64,000 nt of DNA from Dechloromonas sp. HYN0024. Its GTDB lineage: Bacteria > Pseudomonadota > Gammaproteobacteria > Burkholderiales > Rhodocyclaceae. Made by a program: the position numbers and the translations under genes. Shown here piece by piece: positions 19,786 to 48,783 of this stretch. Location: positions 1,630,501 through 1,694,500 of the forward strand of contig NZ_CP031842.1 in assembly GCF_003441615.1 (NCBI RefSeq), given 5' to 3'. Below the pieces are notes generated by a model, which saw only the letters and a program-made list of their open reading frames with translations, made no database searches and was not told where the DNA came from. Each line of letters starts with the position of its first letter. Positions within the stretch are counted from its first letter, which is position 1.

Positions 19786-19803
19786 TGTCGCTATTTAGTG
19801 ACA
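19786..19803 (+). promoter_or_regulatory. GlrR-type site 1 (TGTC-N10-GACA)
   Basis: TGTCGCTATTTAGTGACA fits the E. coli GlrR operator pattern. It is 154 bp before the predicted start at 19949 and 67 bp, centre to centre, from site 2. Confidence 0.7.
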
Positions 19804-19852
19804 GTGTAAAACAGCGGAAATACCGTGAATTTTCCGGATAGCGGCAAATGCT

Positions 19853-19870
19853 TGTCGCTATAGAGCGACA
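19853..19870 (+). promoter_or_regulatory. GlrR-type site 2 (TGTC-N10-GACA)
   Basis: TGTCGCTATAGAGCGACA is a nearly perfect palindrome with TGTCGC and GCGACA arms, centred about 87 bp before the predicted start. Confidence 0.75.
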
Positions 19871-19922
19871 GCGATCAGCCGCGTAAAAATATAAATCCGT
19901 TAAATATCAATAACTTAATAAC

Positions 19923-19937
19923 TGGCCCGCTACTTGC
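19923..19937 (+). promoter_or_regulatory. sigma-54 promoter upstream of the small FimV-like gene
   Basis: TGGCCCGCTACTTGC has exact -24/-12 spacing and doublets. The predicted start near 19949 leaves a 184-base leader before the next good start codon at 20133. Confidence 0.82.
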
Positions 19938-19948
19938 AATAGCTATGG

Positions 19949-20086
19949 GGACAACATCGTCGATGAGACCGATCCCATGCCCAGCCAATCAGACACCGCA
20001 GCGAATAGCCTTACAACTGTAAAACCGCCGCTTCGGTCAGCCGGTGGCTTCGGCGGTACGGGCTGAGCACATTTTCAGCCTTTGAT
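19949..20086 (+). ncRNA. candidate sigma-54/GlrR-dependent leader RNA or small RNA
   Basis: The predicted transcript contains a hairpin with ACCGCCG (20024-20030) and CGGCGGT (20051-20057) arms, then GGCTGA/TCAGCC (20061-20066, 20075-20080) followed by TTTGAT, a weak terminator-like end. It also contains a 29-codon frame (19977-20066, beginning MPSQSDTAANS and ending GGFGGTG) with no clear ribosome site. In E. coli the GlrR target is the GlmY small RNA, so a non-coding role is possible, but no sequence likeness to GlmY was established. Confidence 0.3.
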
Positions 20087-20132
20087 CGCCATCACGACAG
20101 CAAAACCCGAGTAAACACCGGAGCACAGACAC

Positions 20133-20459
20133 ATGACAGACAAAGCGGCAAGCCTCTTCCCGGCCACCAGTCTGATACGCCATATCAGCCTGGCCAAGTT
20201 GCTTCCATTTTTCAGAAAAGGAAACATCCAGGATTCACTGTCGCCACAACTCGGTTCGTCAGTGTTTTCACTGCCTGATTATTCAGCACACTTCGTCGCT
20301 GAAGACGACATTTGCCCCCTGGTCGAAGCGGAAGTTTTCATGCTCTTTGGCCGGAAGAGTGATGCTGAGAAAGCGCTGGCCTCTGGTTTGAAATCAGGTC
20401 GCATCACCGCCAGGGCATACTTGCGCTTCTGGTCAGAACAGGCCGCCAAGCGGGCCTAA
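20133..20459 (+). CDS. small protein with FimV C-terminal-like motif
   Basis: A 108-residue soluble protein with no membrane helix. The C-terminal half, PLVEAEVFMLFGRKSDAEKALASGL, matches the C-terminal motif of FimV-type proteins and of the small protein at 35431. GGAG lies 9 bases before the ATG. It is downstream of a sigma-54 promoter with two GlrR-type sites, so it is probably part of an envelope or polar regulon (inference). Function is unknown. Confidence 0.72.
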   Translation: MTDKAASLFPATSLIRHISLAKLLPFFRKGNIQDSLSPQLGSSVFSLPDYSAHFVAEDDICPLVEAEVFMLFGRKSDAEKALASGLKSGRITARAYLRFWSEQAAKRA

Positions 20460-20479
20460 GCATGTCAATCGGTATGCCC

Positions 20480-21403
20480 TTACGCTGCCCTGCCCGCCAA
20501 CCGCTTGCGTACCGCGGTCGTCGCCAGCATGCCGCACAAGGCCAGGACGCCCGCCAGCACACCAACTGCCGCGTCAAGCAGCAGCGATATCGGCGCACCC
20601 ATCACACCAGCCATCCCGGCAACCTGCTCGATACCATGATGAACGGGCGGCATGCCGTGCGACAAAATCCCCCCGCCGACCAGGAACATTGCCGCCGTAC
20701 CGACGATGGTCAGAGTCTTCATCAGTTTCGGCGCGGCCAGCAGCAGCCCTTTGCCGACAGTTTTCATGACGCCACGTCCCTTGAGCAGCAACCAGGCCCC
20801 GACGTCATCCATCTTGACGATGCCGCCGACCAGCCCATAAACGCCGAAAGTCATGAGCAACGCAATGCCGGCCAGAACCGTCAATTGCGTGGTAAAGGGC
20901 TGGCTGGCGACAGTGCCGAGGGCAATGACAATGATTTCGGCCGACAGGACGAAATCAGTGCGAATCGCGCCCTTGATCTTTTCTGCCTCGAATACTTCCA
21001 GATCAACCGCCTCATCGGCCACCGCAGCCAGTTCAACGGCATGCTCGGCAGTATCTTCGCTGGCGCTGTGCAACCAGGGATGGGCCAGTTTCTCGACGCC
21101 TTCGAGGCACAGATAAATGCCACCAAGCATCAACAGGGGCGTCACCGCCCAGGGAATGACCGCGCTGATCACCAGGGCGGCGGGAACCAGAATCAGCTTG
21201 TTTTTCAGGGAACCAACACAGACCGCCCAGACCACGGGCAATTCGCGTTCGGCGGCAACGCCGGCCACCTGCTGTGCGTTCAGCGCCAGGTCGTCGCCGA
21301 GTACCCCGGCCGTCTTCTGGGCTGCAACCTTGGTCAATACCGCGACATCATCGAGGATCGCGGCAATATCGTCGATCAGGACGAGCAGGCTGGCGCCTGC
21401 CAC
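20480..21403 (-). CDS. DUF808 family membrane protein (YedI-like)
   Basis: A 307-residue multi-span membrane protein of the DUF808 family, starting (V/M)AGASLLVLIDDIAAILDD and continuing DVAVLTKVAAQKTAGVLGDD, LALNAQQVAGV. I chose the GTG at 21403 because the family begins at this point and an AGGA lies 8 bases before it; it comes one base after the stop of the upstream small gene. The function is unknown. Confidence 0.82.
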   Translation of the reverse strand: MAGASLLVLIDDIAAILDDVAVLTKVAAQKTAGVLGDDLALNAQQVAGVAAERELPVVWAVCVGSLKNKLILVPAALVISAVIPWAVTPLLMLGGIYLCLEGVEKLAHPWLHSASEDTAEHAVELAAVADEAVDLEVFEAEKIKGAIRTDFVLSAEIIVIALGTVASQPFTTQLTVLAGIALLMTFGVYGLVGGIVKMDDVGAWLLLKGRGVMKTVGKGLLLAAPKLMKTLTIVGTAAMFLVGGGILSHGMPPVHHGIEQVAGMAGVMGAPISLLLDAAVGVLAGVLALCGMLATTAVRKRLAGRAA

Positions 21404-21404
21404 C

Positions 21405-21596
21405 TCAGGATTCCTGACCGGAAGAAGTCTCCAGTGAGAACTCGCGTATCCATGTCGCCCGGCGATCAAACGTTGACCGGCGGTCAGTCTGCATTTCCCC
21501 GTCGCAGGTCTCGTAGGGCGGCGGCTCGATATGGGTCCTGACCCGACGCTCGGCCTGACGTTGCTGCTTTTTTCCGTCTGACATTTTGTTATCCAT
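21405..21596 (-). CDS. small Arg-rich hypothetical protein
   Basis: A 63-residue polar protein with DGKKQQRQAERRVR and TDRRSTFDRRATW, a DRR-type repeat seen in small bacterial proteins of unknown role. GAGGAG lies 6 bases before the ATG at 21596. It is coupled to the DUF808 gene. Confidence 0.6.
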   Translation of the reverse strand: MDNKMSDGKKQQRQAERRVRTHIEPPPYETCDGEMQTDRRSTFDRRATWIREFSLETSSGQES

Positions 21597-21742
21597 AAAC
21601 TGCTCCTCGACTAACCTGGAGGGTAGCTGCATTATGCCACGCCAGCGCAATGGCGCGAAATCGGGAAAAACTTCGGGGCCGATTCAACACCATCAAGACC
21701 CCTTGCCGGAAATCAGCAAATAGGCAGGCAAGCAGCCTACAT

Positions 21743-22258
21743 TCAGCAACCTGAGATATCCGTGCTGACGATTGCGCCGGCACCGCCGTTTAAATAGTTG
21801 ACCCTGCAGGTGGCGGGTGTTGGCGCTGCCGTATATTCCCATCGTAGATTGTTGGCCGACCAGCGCACGGTGAAATCTCCATATCTGACTGTCACACTTG
21901 CATTATTGCGACCATAGCCAAACCCGATATTGGCACCGCTCAAGGCATTTCCGATGCCATCCAGCTGCGAATCGGGATGCCCACCATAGACGCGGATCGC
22001 TGTCGTGTCACCGGCAATCGCTGTGCCATTGGGATAGACGGTAGCAGTCCCAGATTGGGAACTCAGTCCTTTGACGACGACACCGGCAGCAATCAGCGCA
22101 TCGGCCGAACGAACGGCGGCTTCCAGGGCCCTGACCGATCCGATACGGGCATCCCGGTGAATATTCGCATATCGGGGAATGGCGACCGCAGCCAGTATGC
22201 CAAGAATGACAATGACGATGACCAATTCGATGAGGGTAAAGCCATGGTTGCGGCGCAT
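21743..22258 (-). CDS. type IV pilin-like (prepilin) protein
   Basis: A 171-residue protein with the prepilin leader MRRNHG and processing site G|FTLIELVIVIVILGILAAVAIP, then a C-terminal pair of cysteines (CRVNYLNGG and DISGC) able to form a disulfide-bonded loop. It is a lone gene, not in a pil cluster, so it may be a major or minor pilin or a pseudopilin of a secretion system. Confidence 0.9.
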   Translation of the reverse strand: MRRNHGFTLIELVIVIVILGILAAVAIPRYANIHRDARIGSVRALEAAVRSADALIAAGVVVKGLSSQSGTATVYPNGTAIAGDTTAIRVYGGHPDSQLDGIGNALSGANIGFGYGRNNASVTVRYGDFTVRWSANNLRWEYTAAPTPATCRVNYLNGGAGAIVSTDISGC

Positions 22259-22418
22259 GCTTCTCAGGATATGACATTTGAATGTCGGATTGTAATTCTA
22301 CCGTCGAAAAAAACACCTTGTGAACCGATCATGAAGGAGCGGTCGCGGCAAGGTAGAATCCACCGGTTTTGACTGTCGGTCGTGACAGCCTGTGAAACTC
22401 ATCCGTTTTTGAAAAGCC

Positions 22419-24368
22419 ATGTCTGAATACTCCGCCTCATCCATCCGCGTCCTGAAAGATCTCGAACCCGTCAAGGAACGTCCCGGCATGTACACCCGGA
22501 CAACCTGCCCGACCCATATCATTCAGGAAGTCATCGACAACGCGGCCGACGAGGCGCTGGCCGGCTACGCCAAAAAGATTGCCGTTAGCGTTCGGGCCGA
22601 CGGCATCATCGAGGTGTCCGACAATGGGCGCGGCATCCCCGTTGAAATCCACCCGGACGAAGGCCGGCCGGCGGTCGAACTGGTTTTTTGCAAGCTGCAC
22701 GCCGGCGGCAAGTTCAACAAGACCGAATCAGGCAACGCTTATCGCTTCTCCGGCGGCCTGCACGGTGTCGGCGTCTCGGTAACCAATGCCCTGTCGATCC
22801 GCCTTGAAGTCGAGATCAAGCGTGGCGGGGGCGTGCATCACATCGCCTTCGGCGCCGGCTTCGTGACCGAACCGCTGTCGCGCATTGGCGATTGCGGCCA
22901 GCGCAATACCGGGACGACAGTACGCATCCAGCCCGACCCCAAATACTTCGACTCTCCGAAGATCAATCTGCCGCAACTCGAGCACCTGCTGCGCTCGAAG
23001 GCCGTGCTGATGCCCAATGTCACGGTCGAACTCGACATCGAAGGCCAGGACAAGAAGGTCTGGTGCTACCAGAACGGCATGGCCGATTACCTCAACGAAA
23101 TGATGGTCGGTACGCCGGTCGCGCCGATTTTTGTTGGCGAAAAGTATGTCGACACGGCCAACGGCTTCTCCATCGGCGAAGGTGCCACCTGGGCCCTCGC
23201 CTGGTTCGAGGAAGGCGGCGGCAAGCCGGAAAGTTACGTCAACCTGATCCCGACGCTGGACGGCGGCACCCACGAAGCCGGGCTCAAGGCCGGTGTCTTC
23301 GAGGCGATCAAGACCTTCGCCGAGCATCACGCCATTCTCCCGGCCAAGGTCAAGCTGGCCCAGGAAGACGTCTGCGGCCGGATGACCTACCTGCTCTCGG
23401 CCAAGGTGCTCGACCCGCAGTTCCAGGGCCAGACCAAGGAAAAGCTGACCAGCCGCGACGCGTACAAGCTAGTGTCGCAGATGGTGCGCGACCCCTTCGA
23501 ATTGTGGCTCAACAGCCATGCCGATTTCGGCAAGAAGATCGCCGAACTGGCGGTCAAGGCGGCGCAGAACCGCATGAAATCGACGCAGAAGGTCGAGAAG
23601 AAGAAGTCCTCGGGGATCGCCACCCTGCCCGGCAAGCTGACCGATTGCGAATCCGACGATATTTCCCGCAACGAGGTCTTCCTGGTCGAAGGCGACTCGG
23701 CCGGCGGCTCGGCCAAGCAGGGCCGTGACAAGGAAACCCAGGCCGTGCTTCCTCTACGGGGCAAGGTGCTCAACACCTGGGAAGTCGACCGCGACCAGTT
23801 GTTCAAAAATAACGAAGTCCATGACATTTCCGTCGCCATCGGCGTGGACCCGCACGGCATCGACCAGATTGACAGTGTCGATGTCTCCGGACTGCGCTAT
23901 GGCCGCATCATCGTCATGTCCGATGCCGACGTCGACGGCAGCCATATCCAGGTGTTGCTGTTCACGCTCTTCCTCAAGCACTTCCCGGCACTGGTCGAGC
24001 GCGGCCACATCCACGTCGCCCAGCCGCCGCTCTTTCGCGTCGATGTCGAGGCGCGCGGCCATACGCGCAAGGTGTATTGCCTTGATGAAGCCGAGAAGGA
24101 ACAAACCCTCACCAAGCTGCGCGACGAAGGCGTTTCGGAAAACAAGATCACCGTCTCCCGCTTCAAGGGCCTCGGCGAAATGAACCCCGACCAGCTCTGG
24201 GAAACCACGCTTTGCCCCGATACTCGTCGCCTCGTGCCGTTCCAGGCCAGCCGCGAAACAATCAAGGAAATGACCACCACCTTCACCCTGCTCATGGGCA
24301 AGGGCGAAGCTGCCGGTCGCCGGGCGTGGATGGAAAAGGATGGCGGCCTGGTCGAGGCCGACGTCTGA
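22419..24368 (+). CDS. parE: ParE, topoisomerase IV subunit B
   Basis: A 649-residue ATPase subunit that decatenates chromosomes together with ParC. It has the GHKL ATP site (DNAADEAL, NGRGIPVE), the transducer region and the TOPRIM domain (VEGDSAGGSAKQGRDK at about 425-440, SDADVDGSHI at about 506-515). Length and order match E. coli ParE. ParC is encoded 8.5 kb downstream. Confidence 0.97.
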   Translation: MSEYSASSIRVLKDLEPVKERPGMYTRTTCPTHIIQEVIDNAADEALAGYAKKIAVSVRADGIIEVSDNGRGIPVEIHPDEGRPAVELVFCKLHAGGKFNKTESGNAYRFSGGLHGVGVSVTNALSIRLEVEIKRGGGVHHIAFGAGFVTEPLSRIGDCGQRNTGTTVRIQPDPKYFDSPKINLPQLEHLLRSKAVLMPNVTVELDIEGQDKKVWCYQNGMADYLNEMMVGTPVAPIFVGEKYVDTANGFSIGEGATWALAWFEEGGGKPESYVNLIPTLDGGTHEAGLKAGVFEAIKTFAEHHAILPAKVKLAQEDVCGRMTYLLSAKVLDPQFQGQTKEKLTSRDAYKLVSQMVRDPFELWLNSHADFGKKIAELAVKAAQNRMKSTQKVEKKKSSGIATLPGKLTDCESDDISRNEVFLVEGDSAGGSAKQGRDKETQAVLPLRGKVLNTWEVDRDQLFKNNEVHDISVAIGVDPHGIDQIDSVDVSGLRYGRIIVMSDADVDGSHIQVLLFTLFLKHFPALVERGHIHVAQPPLFRVDVEARGHTRKVYCLDEAEKEQTLTKLRDEGVSENKITVSRFKGLGEMNPDQLWETTLCPDTRRLVPFQASRETIKEMTTTFTLLMGKGEAAGRRAWMEKDGGLVEADV

Positions 24369-24405
24369 CGACAAAACCACAGGCCAATCTGTTACAAAAG
24401 ATCAC

Positions 24406-24450
24406 TCCCGGGTAGCCGTAAACCCGGGAAAATCCTGTCGGAGGATTTCC
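24406..24450 (+). terminator. tandem hairpins after parE
   Basis: TCCCGGGT/AACCCGGGA (24406-24429) is followed directly by AATCCT/AGGATT (24431-24447) arms. The run of T after them is short, so termination strength is unclear. Confidence 0.4.
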
Positions 24451-24487
24451 CGTCACGCCGGAATCAAAATTTCAGCAGGATCACGAC

Positions 24488-24751
24488 ATGAGCAAATCAA
24501 TCGCCTTACCCGTCATCGTCACCGCCGCCTTGCTAGCTCTGGCCTTCACGCTCAACCCATCGCCCGAAAAGCACCGGGAAAAAATCAAACAGGTGATTGG
24601 CGAACGCAGCCAGATCGAGCGCGTACTCGGCATTGGCCACCTGACCTCATTTGTATCGAAATACCACTCTCTGGGTGTCGCCTCTTACACCACCGTCGAC
24701 GACAAAATCACGTCAACCGGCCTCTTTGGCCTGGTCTTCGTACATGATTGA
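24488..24751 (+). CDS. small membrane-anchored protein (DUF4359-like)
   Basis: An 87-residue protein with an N-terminal hydrophobic segment (about 5-20) and an NPSPEKHREKIKQVI helix, a style similar to DUF4359. The ATG of the downstream patatin gene overlaps its end by 8 bp. Function unknown. Confidence 0.6.
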   Translation: MSKSIALPVIVTAALLALAFTLNPSPEKHREKIKQVIGERSQIERVLGIGHLTSFVSKYHSLGVASYTTVDDKITSTGLFGLVFVHD

Positions 24752-25655
24752 TTCAAGCCGCCCCGCCACCAACATGCCCGATCAGATGCCACCTCTCCAC
24801 ATGGTCAGCCGGCGCCGCCTGCTCGGGGCCAGCCTGCTGCTACTGGGTGGCTGTGCCAGCCTGATGCCTGGCAAGCCGACCGTACCGGCCCGGCCCAAGA
24901 TCGGCCTGGCGCTCGGCGGCGGCGCAGCACGCGGCTTCGCCCATATTGGCGTGATCAAGATGCTCGAGTCACACGGCATTGTCCCCGACTACGTGGTTGG
25001 CACCAGCGCCGGCGCAGTCGTCGGTTCGCTTTACGCCGCCGGCTACGACGCCTTCGTCATGCAGAAAATTGCCCAGCAGCTTGACGAGAAAATATTTGCC
25101 GACTGGACGCTCGGCGGGCGTGGCCTGCTCAAGGGTGAGGCCCTGCAGGAATTCATCAATCAGCATCTGAAAAACCGCCCGCTGGAAAAGCTCAACAAAC
25201 CGTTTGCCACTGTTGCCACCGATCTCAATACGGGGGAACGCGTCGTCTTCCGGACCGGCGACTCGGGCATGGCTGTCCGTGCCTCAGCCGCCGTGCCGGG
25301 CGTATTTCAGCCCACCCAGTTTCGCGGCAAGAGCTATGTCGATGGCGGGCTGACCAGCCCGATCCCGGTTCAGGCTGCGCGTGAAATGGGCGCCGACATG
25401 GTTATCGCCGTGGACATCTCGGCCCGGGCCGAAGGCCAGCCGGTGGACAGCCTGACAGCCATCATCTGGCAAACGACAACGATCATGGGCAGCGTGATCG
25501 GAGCCAGCGAACTGCGCAGCGCCGACATCGTGATCCGGCCGACGCTGCCCTACGTCAAATCCTGGGATTTCGCCGCCCGCAACGACGCCATGCTCGAAGG
25601 CGAGCGCGCCGCCCAGGCCGCCCTGCCTGCGATCAAACAGAAACTCGGGCGTTGA
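24744..25655 (+). CDS. patatin-like phospholipase, lipoprotein
   Basis: A patatin-family lipase with the oxyanion loop LALGGGAARGFAHIG, the nucleophile box GTSAGA (Ser) and the catalytic Asp in VDGGL (DGG dyad). The N-terminus holds basic residues, a hydrophobic run and the lipobox LLGGCASL, which predicts lipid anchoring. I chose the ATG at 24744, overlapping the preceding gene; ATGs at 24774 and 24804 would keep the signal too and cannot be excluded. It resembles RssA-like bacterial patatins. Confidence 0.88.
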   Translation: MIDSSRPATNMPDQMPPLHMVSRRRLLGASLLLLGGCASLMPGKPTVPARPKIGLALGGGAARGFAHIGVIKMLESHGIVPDYVVGTSAGAVVGSLYAAGYDAFVMQKIAQQLDEKIFADWTLGGRGLLKGEALQEFINQHLKNRPLEKLNKPFATVATDLNTGERVVFRTGDSGMAVRASAAVPGVFQPTQFRGKSYVDGGLTSPIPVQAAREMGADMVIAVDISARAEGQPVDSLTAIIWQTTTIMGSVIGASELRSADIVIRPTLPYVKSWDFAARNDAMLEGERAAQAALPAIKQKLGR

Positions 25656-25727
25656 GTCGACGGTATCGCCAAAGCATCACAAATTTCTGCCAAAATTCAA
25701 TTTTTGAAACACTCCAGCGGATTCACC

Positions 25728-26666
25728 ATGACCTACAAAGTCTTTGTCGACGGCCAGGAAGGCACCACCGGCCTGCAGATCAACGAATATCTCGCCAAAC
25801 GCAGCGATGTCAGGCTGCTCAAGATCGACGCCGACAAGCGCAAGGATCTGGGCGAACGCAAACGGCTGATCAACGAATCCGACGTCACCTTCCTGTGCCT
25901 GCCGGACGAGGCTGCCAAGGAGTCGGTAACCCTCGTCGACAACCCGAACACCTGCATCATCGATGCCTCGACGGCACATCGCGTCAATCCAGACTGGACC
26001 TTCGGCCTGCCCGAACTGGCCCCCGGCCAGCGTGCCCGGATCCGCGCCAGCAAGCGCATCGCCAACCCCGGATGCCATGCCAGCGCCTTCATCCTGGCCT
26101 TGCGCCCCCTCGTCGTCGCCGGCCTGCTGCCGTCGGCCACGCAGATCGCTGCCAATTCGATCACGGGCTACTCGGGCGGCGGCAAGTCGATGATCGCCCA
26201 CTACGAAAGCCCGGAACGCATCAATGCGCCGCGTCCGTACGCCCTCAGCCTGGCCCACAAGCACCTGCCGGAAATGCAGGCTTATACCGGCCTCACTGTC
26301 GCACCCATCTTCCAGCCCATCGTCGGGCCGTTCTACAAGGGTCTGGCCGTTACCGCCTATCTGCATCCGCAGCAGTTCACCCGTGCCGTGACCCCGGTCG
26401 ACGTCCAGAAGATCATTGCCGACTACTACGCCAAGGAAGCCTTCATCCGCGTCCTGCCGGTCGATCTCGACGCCACCACGGCTGGCGGTTTTTATGATGT
26501 CGAGGCCAACAACGACACCAACCGCGTTGATATCGCCGTCTTCGGCAATGTCGAGCGCATGCTGGTGGTGGCCCGCCTCGACAATCTCGGCAAGGGCGCC
26601 TCGGGCGCTGCTGTTCAGGCCATGAACGTCCATCTGGGCGTAGAAGAAAGCCTCGGTCTGGTCTGA
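25728..26666 (+). CDS. argC: ArgC, N-acetyl-gamma-glutamyl-phosphate reductase (type 2)
   Basis: A 312-residue enzyme of arginine synthesis, reducing N-acetylglutamyl phosphate to the semialdehyde with NADPH. The N-terminus [18 protein letters not shown] is the NADP loop; the catalytic Cys is in [10 protein letters not shown] (about residue 117). It lacks the longer N-terminus of type 1 ArgC, so it is the short type. A terminator follows at 26686. Confidence 0.93.
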
Positions 26667-26685
26667 TCCAAGACCTACCCCCATC

Positions 26686-26723: not shown

Positions 26724-26750
26724 TTATCCATCGCACAGAAAGCCCATTCG

Positions 26751-35430: not shown

Positions 35431-35763
35431 ATGTCTCGTACCCTGATCCTGGTCATCGAATTTTTAGTCGTCACGGGCTTATGCTTCAGCATCGGGATGT
35501 ATCTTGCGACCCGCTTTGAGCAGAAAAAGAAAACCAGGCGTCGTAACCTGAATCCGCACTCGCTACCGATGTCCGCCTTTTCGGTGTTCGATCATCCGGC
35601 TGCCCGCAAAACAGCCAACGACGACCCGCTGGAAGAAGCCGAATTGTTCATGATCTACGGCAAGAAGGTAAAAGCGCTGGAAGTACTGAGGGATGCGATG
35701 CTCAAAAAGCGGGTCACCCGGGCCCAATACGAAGCCTTCAAAGCCAATCACGGAATCGATTAA
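35431..35763 (+). CDS. small membrane protein with FimV C-terminal-like motif
   Basis: A 110-residue protein with one N-terminal membrane helix (about 4-26), a basic stretch (EQKKKTRRRN) and a C-terminal motif EEAELFMIYGKKVKALEVLRDA. The last segment resembles the FimV C-terminal motif and the protein at 20133. FimV acts at the cell pole in pili and chemotaxis control; a small relative might bind the same partners (inference). Confidence 0.72.
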   Translation: MSRTLILVIEFLVVTGLCFSIGMYLATRFEQKKKTRRRNLNPHSLPMSAFSVFDHPAARKTANDDPLEEAELFMIYGKKVKALEVLRDAMLKKRVTRAQYEAFKANHGID

Positions 35764-40882: not shown

Positions 40883-40931
40883 CATGTGCCTCGCCCCCGG
40901 TGTGGGCATTTTTTCGGCAGCGGCCAGGCGT

Positions 40932-42140
40932 TTACGCCAGTGCTAACGCCTCATTCGCCCCGGAAACAACGCGATTGCGTCCTGTCGCCTTGGCCAGATA
41001 AAGCGCCTCATCGGCGCAATGCAGCAAATGGTCGAGATCGTAACCATCGCTCGCCACACCGATACTGACCGTATTGCTCACCCCGACGCCCGCGCCGAGG
41101 ACCGGGGTTGCTGCATAGGATTTGCAGAAACGCTCGGCCAGCGCCTGCGCTTCGGCCAGGGTCGTATCCGGCAGAAGCATGGCGAACTCCTCGCCGCCCA
41201 TCCGCCCACACACATCGGATTTGCGCAGGCTTCCCTTCAGTTGATCTGCCAACGCGCGCAAAACCGCGTCACCGACTGAATGACCAAACTGGTCATTGAT
41301 CTGCTTGAAATGGTCGGCATCGATCATCGCAACGCTCAAAGGAAGCTGGTTACGTTCACAATAGGCCGCCAGGGTCTGACCATGCTCGAAAAATGCCCGG
41401 CGGTTTTCCAGTCCGGTCAATTCATCCGTATGCGCCATCATCTCCGCCCTCTGCTTGGCGGCCGACAGGCGGTAGGTCAATTTGAAATTCTCGCTTTGCG
41501 CGGCCGATAACGCCGCACTGGCTCGGACCAGTACGATCATGTAAAACAATGCGGCGACGCCCAGCCCCGTCTCCACGGGCAGACCGCCAAAAAGGAACCA
41601 GACTGTGGTTGGCAGCAGAACGCTGGCCATTGACCCGGCCACCATGTAGGGCCGCGCCGAGTAATGCAAGAAGGCACCGGCCGACATTCCCAACAGAATG
41701 GTGAATTCAATCAACCGATAGACCAGCGAGCTTTCCCGGACAATCAGCAGCACGCCAAGCCCCCAGGCCAGCGTCGTGAACATCAGCGTCACGGCATAGC
41801 GGGTTTCCCAATCGAGTATCTCCAGGCCTGCCGGCCTGCGTCGCCGATGCAACCAGAACAGCCCAAAGCGCATGATGGTGCCAAGGCAGATAGTGGCCAG
41901 CCACCCGACCAGCAAGTCATGCCTGACTTCGCTCCAGATCAGCTGACACAGCAGCAAGGCCACGATGAGACTGATGAAGACGGCCGGATATGACTGCTCG
42001 TACAGCAGATGGAGCTGGTCTGCCCGGACGCGGGCAGCCAAACCCGGCTCATCATCTTGCGGAGGGGGAAAATCCATATTTTTCATGGGAGGCTGACTAT
42101 GCGATGACACCTGACTCAAGTCAAGCGATGGCACCGTCAT
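40932..42140 (-). CDS. membrane diguanylate cyclase (GGDEF)
   Basis: A protein with five or six membrane helices in the N-terminal half and a C-terminal GGDEF domain with the active-site GRMGGEEFAMLLPD, so it should make cyclic di-GMP. The start is uncertain: ATGs at 42194, 42140, 42086 and 42077 are in frame, with no clear ribosome site; I list 42140. The sequence from ADQLHLLYEQSYPAV onward is the firm part. Confidence 0.85.
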   Translation of the reverse strand: MTVPSLDLSQVSSHSQPPMKNMDFPPPQDDEPGLAARVRADQLHLLYEQSYPAVFISLIVALLLCQLIWSEVRHDLLVGWLATICLGTIMRFGLFWLHRRRRPAGLEILDWETRYAVTLMFTTLAWGLGVLLIVRESSLVYRLIEFTILLGMSAGAFLHYSARPYMVAGSMASVLLPTTVWFLFGGLPVETGLGVAALFYMIVLVRASAALSAAQSENFKLTYRLSAAKQRAEMMAHTDELTGLENRRAFFEHGQTLAAYCERNQLPLSVAMIDADHFKQINDQFGHSVGDAVLRALADQLKGSLRKSDVCGRMGGEEFAMLLPDTTLAEAQALAERFCKSYAATPVLGAGVGVSNTVSIGVASDGYDLDHLLHCADEALYLAKATGRNRVVSGANEALALA

Positions 42141-42434
42141 TCTCGATATTTCAGCCAATAGACTGAGCTTGCGACATAGCCAGCCCAAATTCATGAACCT
42201 GCGTGGTGACCGCACAACAAGTTCCAGTGCCCGACAAACCAATGCCCAGCCAGCATCGTCGTCAGAATTATCCGGATGTGAAACGCCTCAAACGACACAA
42301 TCGTTTTCATAATTTTCGGAATAATGATAATTTCCCCACAGTAGAGAATTATTTAATCAACCTAAAATAGGTCAATAGACTCTCGGAACACCCGCCATCG
42401 CTGAACCTCAGGCGGGCTGACGCTGGACGCAAAC

Positions 42435-43934
42435 ATGACGCTAACCGATTCCAGTCACAATTCCCGAGCGGCCATGGCGGCCGTCGTCCTGTTTCTGGTA
42501 TTCGATTTTTCAGCCCTGGCGCTGAATTTCTGGCTGACCTCGAAAATCGAGCGGCAAGCGATTGGCATCAATCTGGCGGGACGGCAACGCATGCTCTCCC
42601 AACGTATGGCCAAGGTACTCCTGCAACTCGAGGATGCGCGGCAAGACGGCACCGACCCGAGTACGCCATTGGCCGAACTGAAAGTCACCCACGATCTATT
42701 CGACCTGACGCTGCAGGGATTTTCCCAAGGGCACCAGACATTCGGTGGTGCCAATGAAGAGATTTTTCTCGAAGCAGTCAATGGCGAAGAGGCCAGGAAT
42801 GTCCTTGTTCAGGCCAACGCAGTCTGGCTACCGTACCGTGAGATGGTTCTGGCGGTCATACAGGGGGGAGCGGGCAATCTGGGTACGACGCTGCCACCCG
42901 CAGCCACCTACGCAAAGCAGCACAACCTTGAAATTCTGGGTCTGATGAATCGATTGACTACAGAACTCGAACGGCTAACCAAGGCCGAAGCAGTGCAGGT
43001 ACGTATCTATCAGGGTGCGGCTTTCATATTGGCGCTGATTAACTTCATCGGGGCTTTTTTTCTGTATTCCCGGCGCATCGGAGAAGCCACCAAGAACCTG
43101 GGCCTGCTAGATGAAATTCTCAACAAGGTCTCGGCCAGTGTCATGGTGCTCGGTGAAGACGGGGCGACCATCATCATGGCAAACCGTACGGCTAGAGCCT
43201 TGTTCTGCTATCAGGACGACATGGTGGGACGGCGGCTCGATACGCTGGTCTCCGGCAAGGAGGGGAACATGATAGGCCTCCGCAAGGATGGCACCAGTTT
43301 TCTCGCCATTACGGAACGCACTGAGGCCCACCTCGGCAGCAGAAAGCTATATATCGAGACCATTCTTGATATCACGCAGCAACGCATGACCGAAGAACAT
43401 CTGAGCAGCCTGGCCTACCACGACCTCCTGACCAAACTGCCCAACCGGCTGCATTTCGATGACCGGCTGAACGTCGAAGTCGACCATGCCCAACGTAAGG
43501 GGCAGACCCTTTGCGTGCTGTTTATTGACCTGGACGGCTTTAAGTCGGTTAACGACACCTATGGTCACGAAGTCGGCGATCTTCTCCTGCAGGATGTCGC
43601 CGTGCGGCTCATGCGATGTTTGCGCGAAAGCGATACGATTTCCCGCCGTGGCGGCGATGAGTTCACCGCCATCATCAACGATGTCGGCTCCCGCGAAAAC
43701 TGCGCCAAGGTAGCTCAGGTCATCGTTTCGCAACTGGCCAAGCCATTCTCCATCAAAACGCATGAATTACGGGTCGGTGCCAGCGTCGGCATCAGCGTCT
43801 ACCCGACCGATGGGGTGGATGGCCAGTTGCTGCTCAGCCGGGCCGACGAGGCCATGTACAAAGCCAAACAGGAAGGCCGGGGCCGTTATTGCTTCTATTC
43901 GATGCCCTCGAATGAGGAAGCCACGCCAGTCTAA
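42435..43934 (+). CDS. PilJ-sensor/PAS diguanylate cyclase
   Basis: A 499-residue protein: a membrane helix (about 11-35), a periplasmic PilJ-type sensor domain (NLAGRQRMLSQRMAKVLLQLE), a second membrane helix (about 194-215), a PAS domain (LDEILNKVSASVMVLGEDGA) and a C-terminal GGDEF domain with SRRGGDEFTAII. The signature suggests active cyclic di-GMP synthesis in response to a signal sensed outside. It is divergent from the other cyclase across 294 bp of AT-rich DNA, which holds their promoters. Confidence 0.9.
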   Translation: MTLTDSSHNSRAAMAAVVLFLVFDFSALALNFWLTSKIERQAIGINLAGRQRMLSQRMAKVLLQLEDARQDGTDPSTPLAELKVTHDLFDLTLQGFSQGHQTFGGANEEIFLEAVNGEEARNVLVQANAVWLPYREMVLAVIQGGAGNLGTTLPPAATYAKQHNLEILGLMNRLTTELERLTKAEAVQVRIYQGAAFILALINFIGAFFLYSRRIGEATKNLGLLDEILNKVSASVMVLGEDGATIIMANRTARALFCYQDDMVGRRLDTLVSGKEGNMIGLRKDGTSFLAITERTEAHLGSRKLYIETILDITQQRMTEEHLSSLAYHDLLTKLPNRLHFDDRLNVEVDHAQRKGQTLCVLFIDLDGFKSVNDTYGHEVGDLLLQDVAVRLMRCLRESDTISRRGGDEFTAIINDVGSRENCAKVAQVIVSQLAKPFSIKTHELRVGASVGISVYPTDGVDGQLLLSRADEAMYKAKQEGRGRYCFYSMPSNEEATPV

Positions 43935-44002
43935 TAAGCGGTCACTAGGGCGAAAACGAGCAAAACCTGACAACCAGCCGCCAAAGACGCGCGCTGGAAA
44001 CG

Positions 44003-44028
44003 AAAAAGCCACCCGAAGGTGGCTTTTT
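44003..44028. terminator. bidirectional terminator between cyclase and tRNA genes
   Basis: AAAAAGCCACC and GGTGGCTTTTT form a perfect stem over a CGAA tetraloop. Confidence 0.9.
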
Positions 44029-44038
44029 CATGAATTTT

Positions 44039-44115
44039 TGGTGCGCCCGGAGCGATTCGAACGCCCGACCCCTTGGTTCGTAGCCAAGTACTCTATCCAG
44101 CTGAGCTACGGGCGC
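44039..44115 (-). tRNA. tRNA-Arg (ACG), copy 1
   Basis: Minus-strand cloverleaf with GCGCCCG/CGGGCGC acceptor arms, anticodon loop CTACGAA (anticodon ACG), TTCGAATC T-loop and an encoded CCA end. It is identical to the copy 140 bp away. A tandem array of two. Confidence 0.96.
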
Positions 44116-44178
44116 ACACCTAAACTGCTTTTACCTCTACTGCCTGTCGCTAGCCAAAACTATCGACATTTGTCCTGA

Positions 44179-44255
44179 TGGTGCGCCCGGAGCGATTCGA
44201 ACGCCCGACCCCTTGGTTCGTAGCCAAGTACTCTATCCAGCTGAGCTACGGGCGC
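44179..44255 (-). tRNA. tRNA-Arg (ACG), copy 2
   Basis: Same sequence as the copy at 44039-44115, including the CCA end, separated by a 63-base spacer. Confidence 0.96.
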
Positions 44256-44320
44256 ACTGTCAGAGCGGCGCATTATACGGAGGTTGGCGTAGAATGCAAG
44301 GTTTCCGCCGAAAAAAGCTG

Positions 44321-44587
44321 ATGTCTTTTTCCTTCGTTCGCATGCCGAAGTACCCCGAGTGCTGGTCGAGTTGCGGCTCGTGCGCGAGTGGCGACATCTT
44401 CATTCTGGAATTGCTGGTGACAGTTGGCGAGATGGTGCAGCGGGACGACAACATCCTGACGCTGGAAACCGGCAAGGTAGCGCTGGACATTCCCAGCCCG
44501 CACGCCGGCCGGGTGGTGCAGATTCATGTCACAGAGGGCGATACGGTCGATGAAGGCGGGCTACTGGTAACCCTGGAAACAGTCTGA
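44321..44587 (+). CDS. free-standing lipoyl/biotinyl-domain protein
   Basis: An 88-residue protein that is almost only a biotinyl/lipoyl attachment domain. Lys52 in TLETGKVALDIPSPHAG sits where the lipoyl or biotin Lys is, though the preceding residue is Gly and not Asp or Met, which favours lipoyl. A Cys-rich start (Cys14, Cys18, Cys21, within CWSSCGSC) is unlike ordinary E2 domains. No dehydrogenase or carboxylase gene is near. The ATG at 44321 is chosen because the longer frame overlaps the tRNA. Confidence 0.7.
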   Translation: MSFSFVRMPKYPECWSSCGSCASGDIFILELLVTVGEMVQRDDNILTLETGKVALDIPSPHAGRVVQIHVTEGDTVDEGGLLVTLETV

Positions 44588-44623
44588 GAAACGCCTTGAA
44601 GCCGCCGGACTCGCCCTCTGCCA

Positions 44624-44965
44624 TCACTTTGGGAGATCGACCTCCATGGCATTGCGCACTTCACGTACGCCATGCACATTGCTGGCAAGATCCAGGGCAC
44701 GACGCAAGGCGTGCTCATCGGGCACCGAGCCGCCGACCGTAACGACCGACGACTTGGTGACGACGCGCAAGTGCGAACCGGCCAGACCAATGTCGGTGCG
44801 CAGCAGGGTTTCCACTCTGTCATTGAGCGCCATGTCCTTGGCCTTGGTGTTGGCGATCATCGCAGCCAGCACTTGCGGGTCGTCAGTGGCGAAGGCCGAG
44901 AGGCCGAGGCCGGCCAAGGTGGCTGCCGCGGTAATGCAGACGATCATGAGTTTTCGTTTGAGCAT
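44624..44965 (-). CDS. BON-domain periplasmic protein
   Basis: A 113-residue exported protein: signal peptide (about 1-25), helix DPQVLAAMIANTKAKDMAL, then a BON domain (LRVVTKSSVVTVGGSVPDEHALRRA). BON domains bind membranes or phospholipids and accompany envelope stress. The ATG at 44965 keeps the signal peptide. It has a sigma-54 promoter with a GlrR-type site upstream, beside glrR itself. Confidence 0.85.
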   Translation of the reverse strand: MLKRKLMIVCITAAATLAGLGLSAFATDDPQVLAAMIANTKAKDMALNDRVETLLRTDIGLAGSHLRVVTKSSVVTVGGSVPDEHALRRALDLASNVHGVREVRNAMEVDLPK

Positions 44966-45003
44966 GAAGATTCCCTTCTTGTGTGATCTGTCACCCACAC
45001 TAT

Positions 45004-45018
45004 GCAAAGGCCATGCCA
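45004..45018 (-). promoter_or_regulatory. sigma-54 promoter of the BON-domain gene
   Basis: On the minus strand TGGCATGGCCTTTGC has exact spacing. Predicted start near 44992, 27 bases before the ATG. Confidence 0.88.
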
Positions 45019-45082
45019 AAAAACAATTTATATTTAGTATCAAATAGTTAAACAACGACCAACGGACCTGGAAGGCATCTTC

Positions 45083-45100
45083 TGTCGCCCTGCGGCGACA
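45083..45100 (-). promoter_or_regulatory. GlrR-type site upstream of the BON-domain gene
   Basis: TGTCGCCCTGCGGCGACA is a TGTC-N10-GACA palindrome with TGTCGC and GCGACA arms, centred about 100 bp before the predicted start. Confidence 0.8.
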
Positions 45101-45123
45101 GATATTGACGGTATGGATCGGCC

Positions 45124-46539
45124 TTAGGCCGGACCGGGCCTGTCGCCAGCTGCTGGCGGGCTTTCGGTTTCACTGCGGAACATGGCAGGTGTCAGGTCAT
45201 GTTTCTGCAACAGGCGGTAAAACTCGGTCCGATTACGATCAGCCAGGCGGGCGGCATCGGCGACGCTACCATCGGTCAGCTTGAGCAACTGGACGAGATA
45301 ATTGCGCTCAAACCGCTGTTTGGCCTCGGCATAGTTCAGGGTATCCATCGACGGCACGCGCAGGGCGCGCTGGACGAGGGTCAGGGGAATGAGCGGCGTC
45401 GAGGTCAGTGCACAGCTTTGCTCGACGACGTTGAACAGTTGCCGGACATTGCCTGGCCAGGCCGCCGTGGCAAGCGCCTCAAGGGCCTCAGGGGCGAAGC
45501 CGTTGACCGGCTTGCCGTATTTTCCGGCGAGGAGTTGGACAAAATGCATGGCGAGCAGCGCAATGTCCTCGCGTCGCTCGTCAAGGCGGGGCAAGGTCAG
45601 CGAAACAACGTCAAGGCGGTAATAGAGGTCTTCGCGGAACTGTCCCTCCGCCATCGCGGCATCGAGGTCGCGGTGGGTTGCCGAGAGCAGACGGACATCA
45701 ACCGGCTCGGCCTTGGTCGTGCCGACCGGGCGCACGACGCGTTCCTGCAGGACACGCAGGAGCTTGACCTGGAGAGCCAGCGGCATGTCACCGATTTCAT
45801 CGAGGAAGAGCGTGCCACCGTTGGCCGCCTGGAACAGACCGACACGGCTGGCTCCGGCCCCGGTGAAAGCCCCCTTGGCATGACCAAAGAGTTCGGACTC
45901 GAGCAATTGTTCCGGAATCGCGCCGCAGTTAATAGCCACGAAAGGCCCCTTGGCACGCGGACTGGCCCGGTGGATGGCGCGAGCCAGAACTTCCTTGCCG
46001 GAGCCGCTTTCGCCACGGATCAGGACGCTGGCATCGGAAGCAGCAACCATGCGCGCTTCGGCCATCAGCTCGGCCATCTTGCTGCTGCGGAAGATGACGC
46101 CGCTCATCCAGCTGTCGTCGCCCTTCCCGGCCTCGCCGGGCCGCTCACCGGATTCGGAATTTGGTGCCGAGAGTTGCAGGGCACGGTCGATTTTTTCGAG
46201 CAGGATCTGGCTGTCGAAGGGTTTGGTCAGGTAGCCAAAGACACCCCGCGATGTCGCATCGACTGCATCGGGAATATTGCCGTGGGCGGTCAGCAGGATG
46301 ACCGGCAGCGTTGGCCGGGTGCGGCGGATTTCCTCAAACAAGGCCAGACCATCAAGTCCGGGCAGGCGGACGTCGCTGACGACAACGCGCGGCGGATCGA
46401 CAGCAATCTGCGCCAGCGCCTGTTCAGCCGAACCAACGGCGGTGACCCGGAAGCCCCTGGCACGCAGACGCATGGTCAGCAGCTTGAGGATATCCTCGTC
46501 ATCGTCCACGACCAATACATGTGCGCCGCCGGCCGTCAT
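45124..46539 (-). CDS. glrR: GlrR (QseF)-type sigma-54-dependent response regulator
   Basis: A 471-residue activator: receiver domain with phosphoacceptor Asp56 (VVVSDVRLPG), AAA+ domain with GESGSGKE, the sigma-54 loop GAFTGA and LFLDEIGDMP, and a C-terminal DNA-binding helix with RNRTEFYRLLQKH. Phrases such as IPDAVDATSRGVFGYLTKP and RQLFNVVEQSCALTS match E. coli GlrR closely. GlrR is phosphorylated by GlrK and binds TGTC-N10-GACA. It overlaps the lipoprotein gene by 4 bp. Confidence 0.92.
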   Translation of the reverse strand: MTAGGAHVLVVDDDEDILKLLTMRLRARGFRVTAVGSAEQALAQIAVDPPRVVVSDVRLPGLDGLALFEEIRRTRPTLPVILLTAHGNIPDAVDATSRGVFGYLTKPFDSQILLEKIDRALQLSAPNSESGERPGEAGKGDDSWMSGVIFRSSKMAELMAEARMVAASDASVLIRGESGSGKEVLARAIHRASPRAKGPFVAINCGAIPEQLLESELFGHAKGAFTGAGASRVGLFQAANGGTLFLDEIGDMPLALQVKLLRVLQERVVRPVGTTKAEPVDVRLLSATHRDLDAAMAEGQFREDLYYRLDVVSLTLPRLDERREDIALLAMHFVQLLAGKYGKPVNGFAPEALEALATAAWPGNVRQLFNVVEQSCALTSTPLIPLTLVQRALRVPSMDTLNYAEAKQRFERNYLVQLLKLTDGSVADAARLADRNRTEFYRLLQKHDLTPAMFRSETESPPAAGDRPGPA

Positions 46540-47084
46540 CGTCTTGCTCCTTCGGGTTTGCCGGGCCGCGGTCGCGGAATCAGCGATTTTTCAATGTTGG
46601 CCAGGCTGTCGAGCTTGTCCTGCAACTCGGCACTCTTGCGCTGGCTCTCTTTCAGTTGCTGACCCTGTCTTTCCAGCTGAATTTCAAGCTTGATGCGCTC
46701 GCCATAGTTGTCGGCAAGCTGTCGGGCGAGCGGGTGAAATGTCTGCGCCGCCGGTTCCGTCGACTTCAGGACACCCTCGAGTATTCCATGCCCCCTGGCG
46801 AGATCCTGCTGGACACGCGGATGGCCGAGCAGCATGGCGATCCTGACCTGGTTAAAGGGGGTCTGCGGCAATGCACCGAGCACCGTACGCTCCCGGGTAA
46901 GCTCGGCAGGTGTCAGGCGCGACAGCCCCTGAGAATAGGCCAGGGCCGCATCGGGGCTGGTGTCCTCCAGATGCAGTTTCCTGGCTAGCGGGCCGGACGA
47001 GCAGGCCGTCATGGTCACCCCGAGGGCGAGCGCCCAAAGGAGGATGGCAACTTGGCGAAATGACGTACTAAGGCTACTGCTCAT
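46536..47084 (-). CDS. QseG-like lipoprotein between glrK and glrR
   Basis: A 182-residue lipoprotein with the lipobox TMTACSS (Cys about 28) and a helical, coiled-coil-like C-terminus (LEIQLERQGQQLKESQRKSAE). QseG/YfhG, the lipoprotein partner of the Glr system in E. coli, occupies the same place. The ATG at 47084 was chosen because it opens directly on the signal peptide; it overlaps the end of the kinase gene by 11 bp. Confidence 0.8.
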   Translation of the reverse strand: MSSSLSTSFRQVAILLWALALGVTMTACSSGPLARKLHLEDTSPDAALAYSQGLSRLTPAELTRERTVLGALPQTPFNQVRIAMLLGHPRVQQDLARGHGILEGVLKSTEPAAQTFHPLARQLADNYGERIKLEIQLERQGQQLKESQRKSAELQDKLDSLANIEKSLIPRPRPGKPEGARR

Positions 47085-48477
47085 CGGGTATTTCCACACA
47101 AAAATGGGCACCCACGGCTTGCGGAATGAGGTGCACAGTCCCACCCATCGCCCGCACCAGCTCACGCACGATGGACAAGCCGACACCGCTGCCTTGTCGG
47201 GGGGCCGGGGCCATGCGCTGGCCCTGAACAAAAGGATCGAAAATACGCTGCCTGTCCTCTTCGGCTACACCCGGTCCCTGATCAACGCAGTCAAAGCGCC
47301 AGAGGCCTTCGCCATGGCTGACAGCGAGGCGGACTTCACCGCCTTCCGGGCTGAAGTCGATAGCGTTCGACAACAGGTTATCGAGCACCACGGTCATTTT
47401 GTCGCCATCGAGCATGGCCGACTCCTCGGGGCTATCGATAATCACCTTCAGATGCCGCGACTGGCTGTGCAACTCACGGCGCTGCGCCACCGCATCAAGC
47501 AGCTTGTGCAGCCGGGTCGGCGCAATTTGCAGGCGGCGCGCCTCGAAGGCGGCAGCGTTGAGCGTCAGCAGGCTTTCGATCTGCACCTGCAAACTGGCGA
47601 CATTGTGCTGAAGAATATCGACCACTTCGCGCTGTCCGGCGGCCAGCGTACCGGGAACCTCCTCGCGCAGCAGGGAGACTCCTTCCTTGAGCGCGGTCAG
47701 CGGTGTTTTGAGTTCGTGCGAGACGTGCCGCAAGGCACGTTCGCGATCAGCCTCCAGTTCGGCCAGGCGTTGCCGCAACCAGTCGAGGCGCTTACCCAGC
47801 TGGCGCAGGTCGGCCGGGCCGCCGACCGTGACCGCTTCATCGAAACGGCTGGCACCGAGCCGGATGATCGCCTGTTCAAGATGGCGAACCGGCCGGACCA
47901 GCCACCAGCCCATAGCCAGGGCGACCAGCAGCGCGCCGACCAGAGCGAGACCGATGCGTACACCCAAACGCATCCGGTTGGCCTCCAGCTCATCGAGCGC
48001 CGCCCGATTTTGCGCTTCGATCCAGCGCTGCCCGGCCTGCTTCAGCAGGCCATCGAGCTCGGCCATGCGGGCCAGCAGGGGAATAATTTCGGCCTGCGGG
48101 ATATTTTGATCAAGGCCACTGCGCAACGCCTCGGCCACCATGCGCCAACCGCCGAGCAAAGGAATAAGCGGCTCGGCAACCTGCGTATCGAGTCGATCAA
48201 TGACGGCCAGCGACTGACTGAGATGCTCGTCAAAGCGCTGGCGGAAAACCGGGCTGTCGAGCACCAGGTATTGCCGTGCGCTGCGCTCAATATCGACGGT
48301 GCGCTCACCGAGTTCCTGGATAGATGCCGTCAGCTGAACCGCCAGTTCGCTGCTGCGCCGGTTCTGATCGACCAGGCGCTCGACAACCAGCCAGCTTTGC
48401 ACCGCCGCCCCGCCGAGGAGCAGGACGATCAGGGCAAAGCCAAGCAACATCCCCTGGCGAAAGGAAATTCGATTCAT
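47074..48477 (-). CDS. glrK: GlrK (QseE)-type sensor histidine kinase
   Basis: A 467-residue membrane kinase: two membrane helices (about 10-30 and 172-194) with a periplasmic helical domain between, a HAMP-like linker, HisKA box HVSHELKTPL with phosphoacceptor His254, and a GHKL ATPase domain (DNLLSNAIDFSP, DQGPGVAEED, GSGVGLSIVRELV). Order kinase-lipoprotein-regulator matches the E. coli glrK-qseG-glrR operon. The ATG at 48477 is chosen over a GTG six bases upstream. Confidence 0.9.
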   Translation of the reverse strand: MNRISFRQGMLLGFALIVLLLGGAAVQSWLVVERLVDQNRRSSELAVQLTASIQELGERTVDIERSARQYLVLDSPVFRQRFDEHLSQSLAVIDRLDTQVAEPLIPLLGGWRMVAEALRSGLDQNIPQAEIIPLLARMAELDGLLKQAGQRWIEAQNRAALDELEANRMRLGVRIGLALVGALLVALAMGWWLVRPVRHLEQAIIRLGASRFDEAVTVGGPADLRQLGKRLDWLRQRLAELEADRERALRHVSHELKTPLTALKEGVSLLREEVPGTLAAGQREVVDILQHNVASLQVQIESLLTLNAAAFEARRLQIAPTRLHKLLDAVAQRRELHSQSRHLKVIIDSPEESAMLDGDKMTVVLDNLLSNAIDFSPEGGEVRLAVSHGEGLWRFDCVDQGPGVAEEDRQRIFDPFVQGQRMAPAPRQGSGVGLSIVRELVRAMGGTVHLIPQAVGAHFCVEIPDEQ

Positions 48478-48610
48478 CGGCACTCAAGTGTCCAAAACTG
48501 AAGTTTATACGGCCCGCGCCACAGAGGGCGCTGAAAACGGCTCGACAGGAGCCCCCGTCGGGCACCATTTGTTCATCCGTTATTACTTTCAAATCAATAG
48601 ATTAGAAACA

Positions 48611-48628
48611 TGTCCTGATTTTACGACA
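48611..48628 (+). promoter_or_regulatory. GlrR-type site 1 before the bactofilin gene
   Basis: TGTCCTGATTTTACGACA fits TGTC-N10-GACA, centred about 175 bp upstream of the predicted bactofilin start. It is 66 bp from the second site, almost the same distance as between the two sites near 19.8 kb. Confidence 0.6.
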
Positions 48629-48676
48629 AGGCCATGGCCCTGATCAGCCCACTTTCCCGGAAAAGCCAAAAATAGA

Positions 48677-48694
48677 TGTCGCAAATTCACGACA
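48677..48694 (+). promoter_or_regulatory. GlrR-type site 2 before the bactofilin gene
   Basis: TGTCGCAAATTCACGACA fits TGTC-N10-GACA, centred about 109 bp before the predicted start. It is not a NifA site, since TGT and ACA are 12 bases apart. Confidence 0.72.
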
Positions 48695-48768
48695 GATAGG
48701 CCTCGAAATTCTACAAACAGCTTTCAAATAAATATCTAATCAACTGAATAAATTGATTATTTAAATCA

Positions 48769-48783
48769 TGGCACGCTTATCGC
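48769..48783 (+). promoter_or_regulatory. sigma-54 promoter of the bactofilin gene
   Basis: TGGCACGCTTATCGC has the consensus -24 half and a GC doublet at -12 (TCGC for TTGC). Predicted start near 48795, 38 bases before the ATG. Confidence 0.8.

Follow-up and report, generated by a model that had tools for sequence, protein, structure and literature searches.

A probable GlrR/QseF-like sigma-54 regulon, small and mostly local, at bactofilin, BON-domain, and FimV-like promoters of Dechloromonas sp. HYN0024

The 64,000-nucleotide stretch of Dechloromonas sp. HYN0024 analyzed in this study (contig NZ_CP031842.1, positions 1,630,501 to 1,694,500; referred to as the window) contains a glrK-qseG-glrR-like operon and five 18-bp palindromes, TGTC-N10-GACA, upstream of three sigma-54-type (-24/-12) promoters. 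It is highly likely that these elements constitute a regulon, small and for the most part local, under the control of a GlrR/QseF-like sigma-54 activator and comprising the promoters of a bactofilin gene, a BON-domain gene, and a small FimV-like gene. The sites, promoters, gene order, conservation, and co-occurrence with GlrR on which this reading was built were observed directly. The elements of the three promoters, including sites resembling those of integration host factor (IHF), were as follows (palindromes carry no strand):

48611..48628: distal site of GlrR type at the bactofilin promoter, by exact palindrome search
48677..48694: proximal site of GlrR type at the bactofilin promoter; distance to the distal site 66 bp, to the promoter 74 bp
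48738..48750, plus strand: IHF-like site at the bactofilin promoter, with one mismatch; further, overlapping IHF-like sites at 48746-48759
48769..48783, plus strand: -24/-12 promoter of bactofilin, TGGCACGCTTATCGC; identical promoter sequence in loci L187 and L188
45083..45100: unpaired site of GlrR type at the BON promoter, at a distance of 64 bp upstream
45038..45050, minus strand in promoter orientation (the motif reads on the plus strand): IHF-like site of the BON promoter, perfect consensus
45004..45018, minus strand: -24/-12 promoter of the BON gene, TGGCATGGCCTTTGC, by consensus match and same-genus alignment
19786..19803: distal site of GlrR type upstream of the FimV-like gene, by exact palindrome search
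19853..19870: proximal site of GlrR type upstream of the FimV-like gene; distance to the distal site 67 bp, to the promoter 52 bp
19905..19917, plus strand: IHF-like site before the FimV-like gene, perfect consensus
19923..19937, plus strand: -24/-12 promoter of the FimV-like gene, TGGCCCGCTACTTGC, by consensus match

The first-pass annotation of this DNA, made from the sequence alone, was right on the sites: all five palindromes (19786, 19853, 45083, 48611, and 48677) were exact and lay where it had placed them. Its description of most arms as TGTCGC/GCGACA was fair, since two were perfect (19853 and 45083), two were one base off (19786 and 48677), and one (48611) had the TGTC/GACA core only. 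The spacing of 66-67 bp that it gave for the pairs was 67 bp for 19786/19853 and 66 bp for 48611/48677, with 45083 being unpaired. Six exact TGTC-N10-GACA sequences were found in the window (expected: 0.90), a number that none of 100 shuffles reached; the sixth, at 5679, was outside the annotated set. The -24/-12 elements annotated at 19923 (plus), 45004-45018 (minus), and 48769 (plus) were also present, each with one mismatch to TGGCAC-N5-TTGC. Such elements were unremarkable alone: 107 window matches at two or fewer mismatches vs. 87.5 expected. Perfect TGGCAC-N5-TTGC sequences were located at 13150-13164 (plus) and 22014-22028 (minus), remote from the five sites.

A scan of the 3.26-Mb genome for sites near -24/-12 elements, which the annotation had proposed, returned its three promoters among four matches. 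The pattern consisted of a site, 45-75 bp, and a -24/-12 promoter, and its reversed form, used as the control, matched nowhere; the fourth match, C1:55772, was within a 765-amino-acid reading frame. A looser pattern gave eight matches (control: 0), three of which were again the window promoters; among the five extra matches, the one looked into, 55772, was inside the reading frame. Paired sites, defined as two exact TGTC-N10-GACA sequences 56-76 bp apart, occurred exactly twice in the whole genome, both in the window. The rare feature is the combination of site and promoter, not the site or the promoter alone.

The putative regulator is encoded between the BON promoter and the bactofilin promoter, in the following operon:

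45124..46539, minus strand: GlrR/QseF-like response regulator, with Pfam Response_reg and Sigma54_activat domains, GlrR as the best NCBIfam model, and a C-terminal DNA-reading helix
46536..47084, minus strand (predicted start; open frame 46536-47231): QseG-like lipoprotein gene, with a lipobox by eye
47074..48483, minus strand: GlrK-like sensor histidine kinase, with Pfam HAMP, HisKA, and HATPase_c domains

The protein at 45124, which had been said to look like GlrR, scored far higher with the GlrR model than with any other, though under that model's cut-off of 763: 598.9 bits, followed by 413.6 bits for ntrC. The receiver and sigma-54 activator domains of the GlrR/QseF-like set were found by Pfam, and the helix was found by alignment alone, Pfam HTH being unmatched. 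The helix RNRTEFYRLL was common to this protein and enterobacterial relatives, and the DNA-reading segment RNRT(E/D/N)FY(R/K)LL was present in 21 of 21 aligned proteins, including enterobacterial and receiver-less relatives. The gene order of kinase, putative QseG-like lipoprotein, and regulator was that of GlrK-QseG-GlrR. In the lipoprotein, the resemblance to same-position proteins of Enterobacteriaceae was confined to a C-terminal stretch (KLDSL..IE); Pfam, NCBIfam, and PDB-sequence searches gave no match for it. TGT-N12-ACA sites, the consensus reported for QseF (PMC6075780), were found here upstream of sigma-54 promoters by sequence only. The annotation was very probably also right in taking GlrR as the regulator.

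Conservation was counted in 61 glrR loci: the window and 60 of the 96 places of GlrR in genomes of the family (ten later additions are outside these counts). The stretch upstream of glrK yielded 73 occurrences of TGTC-N10-GACA and the one directly following glrR yielded 29; other spacers (4-9 and 11-16) gave 0-6 and 0-2, respectively. Eleven control half-sites at a spacing of 10 gave 0-4 and 0-1; at any spacing they gave at most 25, barring the CTGT-N12-ACAG pair (14 and 16), which captures this palindrome with an offset of one base. Site and promoter of the BON gene aligned in three same-genus loci with one site mismatch (GACT twice and GACG once for GACA) and a distance of 63-65 bp to the promoter; the site in a further genus (L190) had two mismatches. 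Two broader scans were of limited use: a family-wide site-plus-promoter scan matched 105 of 199 genomes, many in coding-looking DNA and with the control untotalled, and served as a pointer only, and a strict order-wide pattern matched 5 of 399 genomes, missed Dechloromonas sp. HYN0024 itself, and was therefore uninformative on absence.

With E 1e-150 as the cut-off for calling GlrR present, the 199 family genomes comprised 92 with GlrR and 107 others; diverged or split copies are counted as absent at this cut-off. In the 900 bp before bactofilin genes, exact sites were detected in 43 of 48 loci linked to glrR (paired, 20; with a promoter, 24); these 48, out of 63 linked loci, were usable in having a bactofilin match and 300 bp of upstream sequence. 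Unlinked bactofilins in GlrR genomes gave 15/23 (paired, 8; with a promoter, 7). Neither pairs nor site-plus-promoter combinations occurred before the 20 bactofilins from genomes scored as GlrR-lacking (pairs, GlrR genomes vs. this group: p 0.0003). Seven control half-sites were found in 0-1 upstreams per group, with one exception (3/23).

Exact pairs were present in 54 of the 199 family genomes (64 pairs; reversed control: 2), and were concentrated in GlrR genomes: 51/92 vs. 3/107 (Fisher p 3e-18, kinship ignored). These totals still include pairs of the TGTCTG/TGTCCG type resembling those of another regulator (L266, L280, G065, and G121) and pairs in coding-looking DNA (G086, G130, G161, and G198). 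L266 and L280 each show a pair of such palindromes at a spacing of 68 bp, accompanied by a -24/-12 element, before genes whose products by eye resemble ABC-transporter binding proteins; these are perhaps the sites of a sister regulator. The same-genus genome G147 showed no GlrR at E 1e-150, no bactofilin at E 1e-20, and no exact pair.

Pair spacing was 65-69 bp in 57 of the 64 pairs, though 56-76 bp had been searched. An IHF consensus (one mismatch or fewer) between the proximal site and promoter was found in all three window promoters, two of them perfect, and in 23 of 37 spacers, against an average of 4.5 and no more than 10 in 200 shuffles; this spacer set was restricted to sites with a strict promoter, and one row, L237, is probably spurious. 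IHF-like sites also occurred between the paired sites in 23 of 65 spacers (shuffles: mean 3.8, maximum 9), and 19 of these 23 started 15-21 bases into the spacer. An IHF bend at this position would explain why the spacing is fixed without corresponding to an integral number of helical turns. The distance from site to promoter also showed seemingly strong helical phasing, but this was set aside because it is based on related promoters.

The products of the three predicted target genes were as follows:

48833..49393, plus strand: bactofilin, 186 amino acids; Pfam PF04519, 65.8 bits; divergent from the kinase gene
44624..44965, minus strand: BON-domain protein, 113 amino acids; Pfam PF04972, 45.2 bits; just after glrR
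20133..20459, plus strand: small FimV-like protein, 108 amino acids; 32% identity over 53 residues to a FimV/HubP protein of a relative

Bactofilin and BON-domain genes appear to be recurrent targets across the family, linked to glrR or not, while others, including the FimV-like gene, come and go. Unlinked pairs with a promoter preceded bactofilin in L269, L270, and L271 (Pfam checked for L270), BON lipoproteins in L268 and L283, small proteins without a Pfam match in L254 and L286, an EF-hand protein in L287, and others; in L284 (G064), a GNAT-type acyltransferase with weak autoinducer-synthase similarity lay 143 bp downstream. Further pairs were found within 900 bp before unlinked bactofilins in G002, G031, G077, G116, and G181. 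The gene just after glrR varied: 22 proteins from the BON position, hand-chosen for a Pfam scan (two unlinked, and some from loci without an exact site), comprised 13 BON and 9 glycine-zipper proteins, and among the loci listed this position was elsewhere occupied by an EF-hand protein (L029), bactofilin (L293), or an MdoG-type glucan protein (L026, Rubrivivax albus). The predicted targets of GlrR differ between lineages. Two same-genus genomes, G062 (L110/L254) and G112 (L111/L255), each have an extra paired-site promoter of their own, one upstream of a gene for a small His-rich protein and the other upstream of a gene for a protein of 444 amino acids or more; neither product has a Pfam match. 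Shortly downstream of the BON gene in the window, two tRNA matches of equal score lie close together on the minus strand (44042-44115 and 44182-44255).

Several results weighed against this regulon or its simplest form, and other explanations were considered alongside them. The annotation had proposed GlrR control of all three genes, to be refuted if the sites were not conserved in relatives; bactofilin sites recur family-wide and the BON site recurs in three loci of the genus, in keeping with this proposal for those two genes, whereas a search of four same-genus genomes at E 0.001 yielded no orthologue of the FimV-like gene. The best relative outside the genus (L158, 31%) had no exact site within the 3.3 kb examined, and Pfam and NCBIfam searches with the FimV-like protein gave no match. 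This target looks lineage-specific. A second small FimV-like protein is encoded at 35431-35763 in the window (34% over 77 residues to the 20133 protein). It is conceivable, though unlikely, that GlrR controls bactofilin and BON but that the 19923 promoter matters for an RNA, or for no conserved product, rather than for the FimV-like protein. This would accord with the missing orthologues, with the long predicted leader of about 180 nucleotides before 20133, and with the RNA target of the E. coli regulator (PMC6075780). However, this leader gave no match in an Rfam search at gathering thresholds and was not unusually folded (z -1.17), giving no support to a structured RNA leader, and GGAG is located shortly upstream of the start codon of the FimV-like gene.

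Single sites were also close to control levels: TGTCGC-N8-GACA occurred 8 times forward and 7 times reverse in the genome vs. 5 and 7 for the pattern read backwards. Together with the perfect stem of the 45083 palindrome directly past the stop codon of glrR, this would suit palindromes that are hairpins, terminators, or GC-rich chance matches. We consider such an origin very improbable: no T-run followed 45083 on either strand in the sequence inspected, a spacing of 10 was sharply preferred over others in the 61 loci, the distance between site and -24/-12 element was fixed in the genus (BON promoter), and pair spacing clustered well within the range searched.

Concerning the regulator itself, its score did not reach the cut-off of the GlrR equivalog NF011695, and because of this the 45124 protein stands outside that curated, E. 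coli-type group. In searches with this model E. coli passed the cut-off, as did none of 40 family genomes. Site, pair, and co-occurrence counts ignored kinship among genomes; 41 of the 92 GlrR genomes had no exact pair, 5 of the 48 linked bactofilins had no exact site, and an IHF-like site was sought between the sites of the window's two pairs and found in neither. The main result against the simple picture was the presence of sites before bactofilin in genomes scored as GlrR-lacking: 9/20 had an exact site, and the difference from unlinked bactofilins in GlrR genomes (15/23) was not significant (p 0.23). Some of these 20 genomes had related genes: a receiver-less GlrR-like activator divergent from bactofilin (G067, G115, G150, and G180), a 51% relative divergent from bactofilin (G108), a fragment elsewhere (G163), and glrK with a QseG-like gene at a contig end (G161). 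Such genes are present in four of the nine genomes with a site (G067, G115, G150, and G161), leaving five with a single site and no such explanation (G066, G080, G090, G114, and G149). The receiver-less activators (L393-L396, from G180, G115, G067, and G150, respectively) matched GlrR only from about residue 142, with no receiver match, and TGTC-N10-GACA lay between activator and bactofilin in three of these four loci.

The single site kept in those five genomes might also indicate that another sigma-54 activator owns the sites, whether NifA, a PrsR-type regulator, or other. Fourteen stretches of the genome, GlrR among them, matched the PrsR model at E 1e-60 or better, showing that other sigma-54 activators exist in the genome, and the window itself carries a gene for NifA, at a distance of some 8 kb from the first promoter. 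Ownership by any of these nevertheless appears improbable: pairs track GlrR and cluster around glrR itself, and the GlrR helix is the same as in enterobacterial relatives. A PrsR paralogue, which the annotation had named as an alternative, was not favored, since none of the 14 matches reached the PrsR cut-off (TIGR02915, 502.6 bits), the best in the genome being the GlrR-like protein itself (388.2 bits). NifA sites are TGT-N10-ACA, and sites of this spacing (TGTC-N8-GACA) numbered 0 in the 61 glrR loci vs. 73 and 29 for TGTC-N10-GACA; NifA was rejected on this spacing. The NifA protein (10117-11934) scored 658 bits, over its cut-off, and is preceded by a PAS/HATPase protein (8771-10303) that may be NifL by position and domains.

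In the proposed GlrR regulon, GlrR would be phosphorylated by the GlrK-like kinase, probably aided by the QseG-like lipoprotein, both by analogy with E. coli. It would bind 18-bp TGTCGC-N6-GCGACA palindromes, paired at 66-67 bp at two promoters and single at the third. IHF may bend the spacer that separates activator from promoter and, in many relatives, probably the spacer within the pair of activator sites as well. GlrR would thereby reach sigma-54 polymerase, the -24/-12 promoter being 52-74 bp downstream, and turn on bactofilin, the BON-domain protein, and the small FimV-like protein, with a presumed role in the envelope. If true, this would show a role of the GlrR switch outside gut bacteria, and would tie the signal of the GlrK-like kinase to cell-wall architecture, not to precursor supply alone. 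It provides a testable list of GlrR targets for a free-living bacterial family, adds the cytoskeletal protein bactofilin to the predicted sigma-54 targets, and offers compact promoters suited to asking how two activator sites and IHF cooperate. More tentatively, and with slightly less than even confidence, we suggest that the older, general job of GlrK-QseG-GlrR may be the activation of a few structural envelope genes (bactofilin, BON, glycine-zipper lipoprotein, and EF-hand) from fixed two-site promoters with an IHF bend between the sites. GlmY would then have taken the place upstream of glrK only later, in enterics, and the tie to bactofilin would be so tight that, in one genus, a receiver-less GlrR-like activator persists beside it.

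In E. coli, QseF activates glmY and rpoE from sigma-54 promoters, binding three TGTN12ACA sites at glmY with the assistance of IHF, and QseG is needed; QseE/QseF is described as conserved in Enterobacteriaceae and as controlling an RNA and a sigma factor (PMC6075780). A survey from 2011 counted 117 QseF-like activators and linked sigma-54 to the cell exterior; the available portion of this source contained no list of targets of QseF-like activators outside enterics (PMC3162934). The targets of the GlrR/QseF-like regulon proposed here had no earlier description in the literature searched: in open-access literature (subscription papers were mostly outside the search), no paper was found that joins bactofilin with QseF or GlrR, or the BON domain with bactofilin or with sigma-54. 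The new elements are the pairs of mostly 65-69 bp, the IHF-like sites, bactofilin and BON as recurrent targets, and the other envelope genes in the BON position elsewhere.

NifA upstream activating sequences combine a palindrome, an IHF bend, and a -24/-12 promoter. The present promoters share this palindrome, IHF-like site, and -24/-12 promoter, but differ in the TGT-to-ACA spacing: 12 here, 10 for NifA. PrsK-PrsR with the PEP-CTERM box is similar in joining a sigma-54 response regulator to a motif upstream of surface-protein genes (PMC1569441); here, however, every protein of the genome falls short of the PrsR cut-off, and the target genes are others. The closest parallel is E. coli GlrK-QseG-GlrR (QseE/QseG/QseF), with which the gene order (with a putative QseG-like lipoprotein), best model match, TGT-N12-ACA sites, IHF-like sites, and sigma-54 promoters agree; the DNA-reading helix is that of enterobacterial GlrR relatives. 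The targets predicted here are bactofilin, BON, and the FimV-like gene, those known in E. coli being glmY and rpoE; no GlmY match was found at Rfam gathering thresholds within the 64-kb window, the part of the genome searched, and the sites are mostly paired, 65-69 bp apart, unlike the three reported at glmY (PMC6075780). As far as sequence can tell, the system appears to work like that of E. coli.

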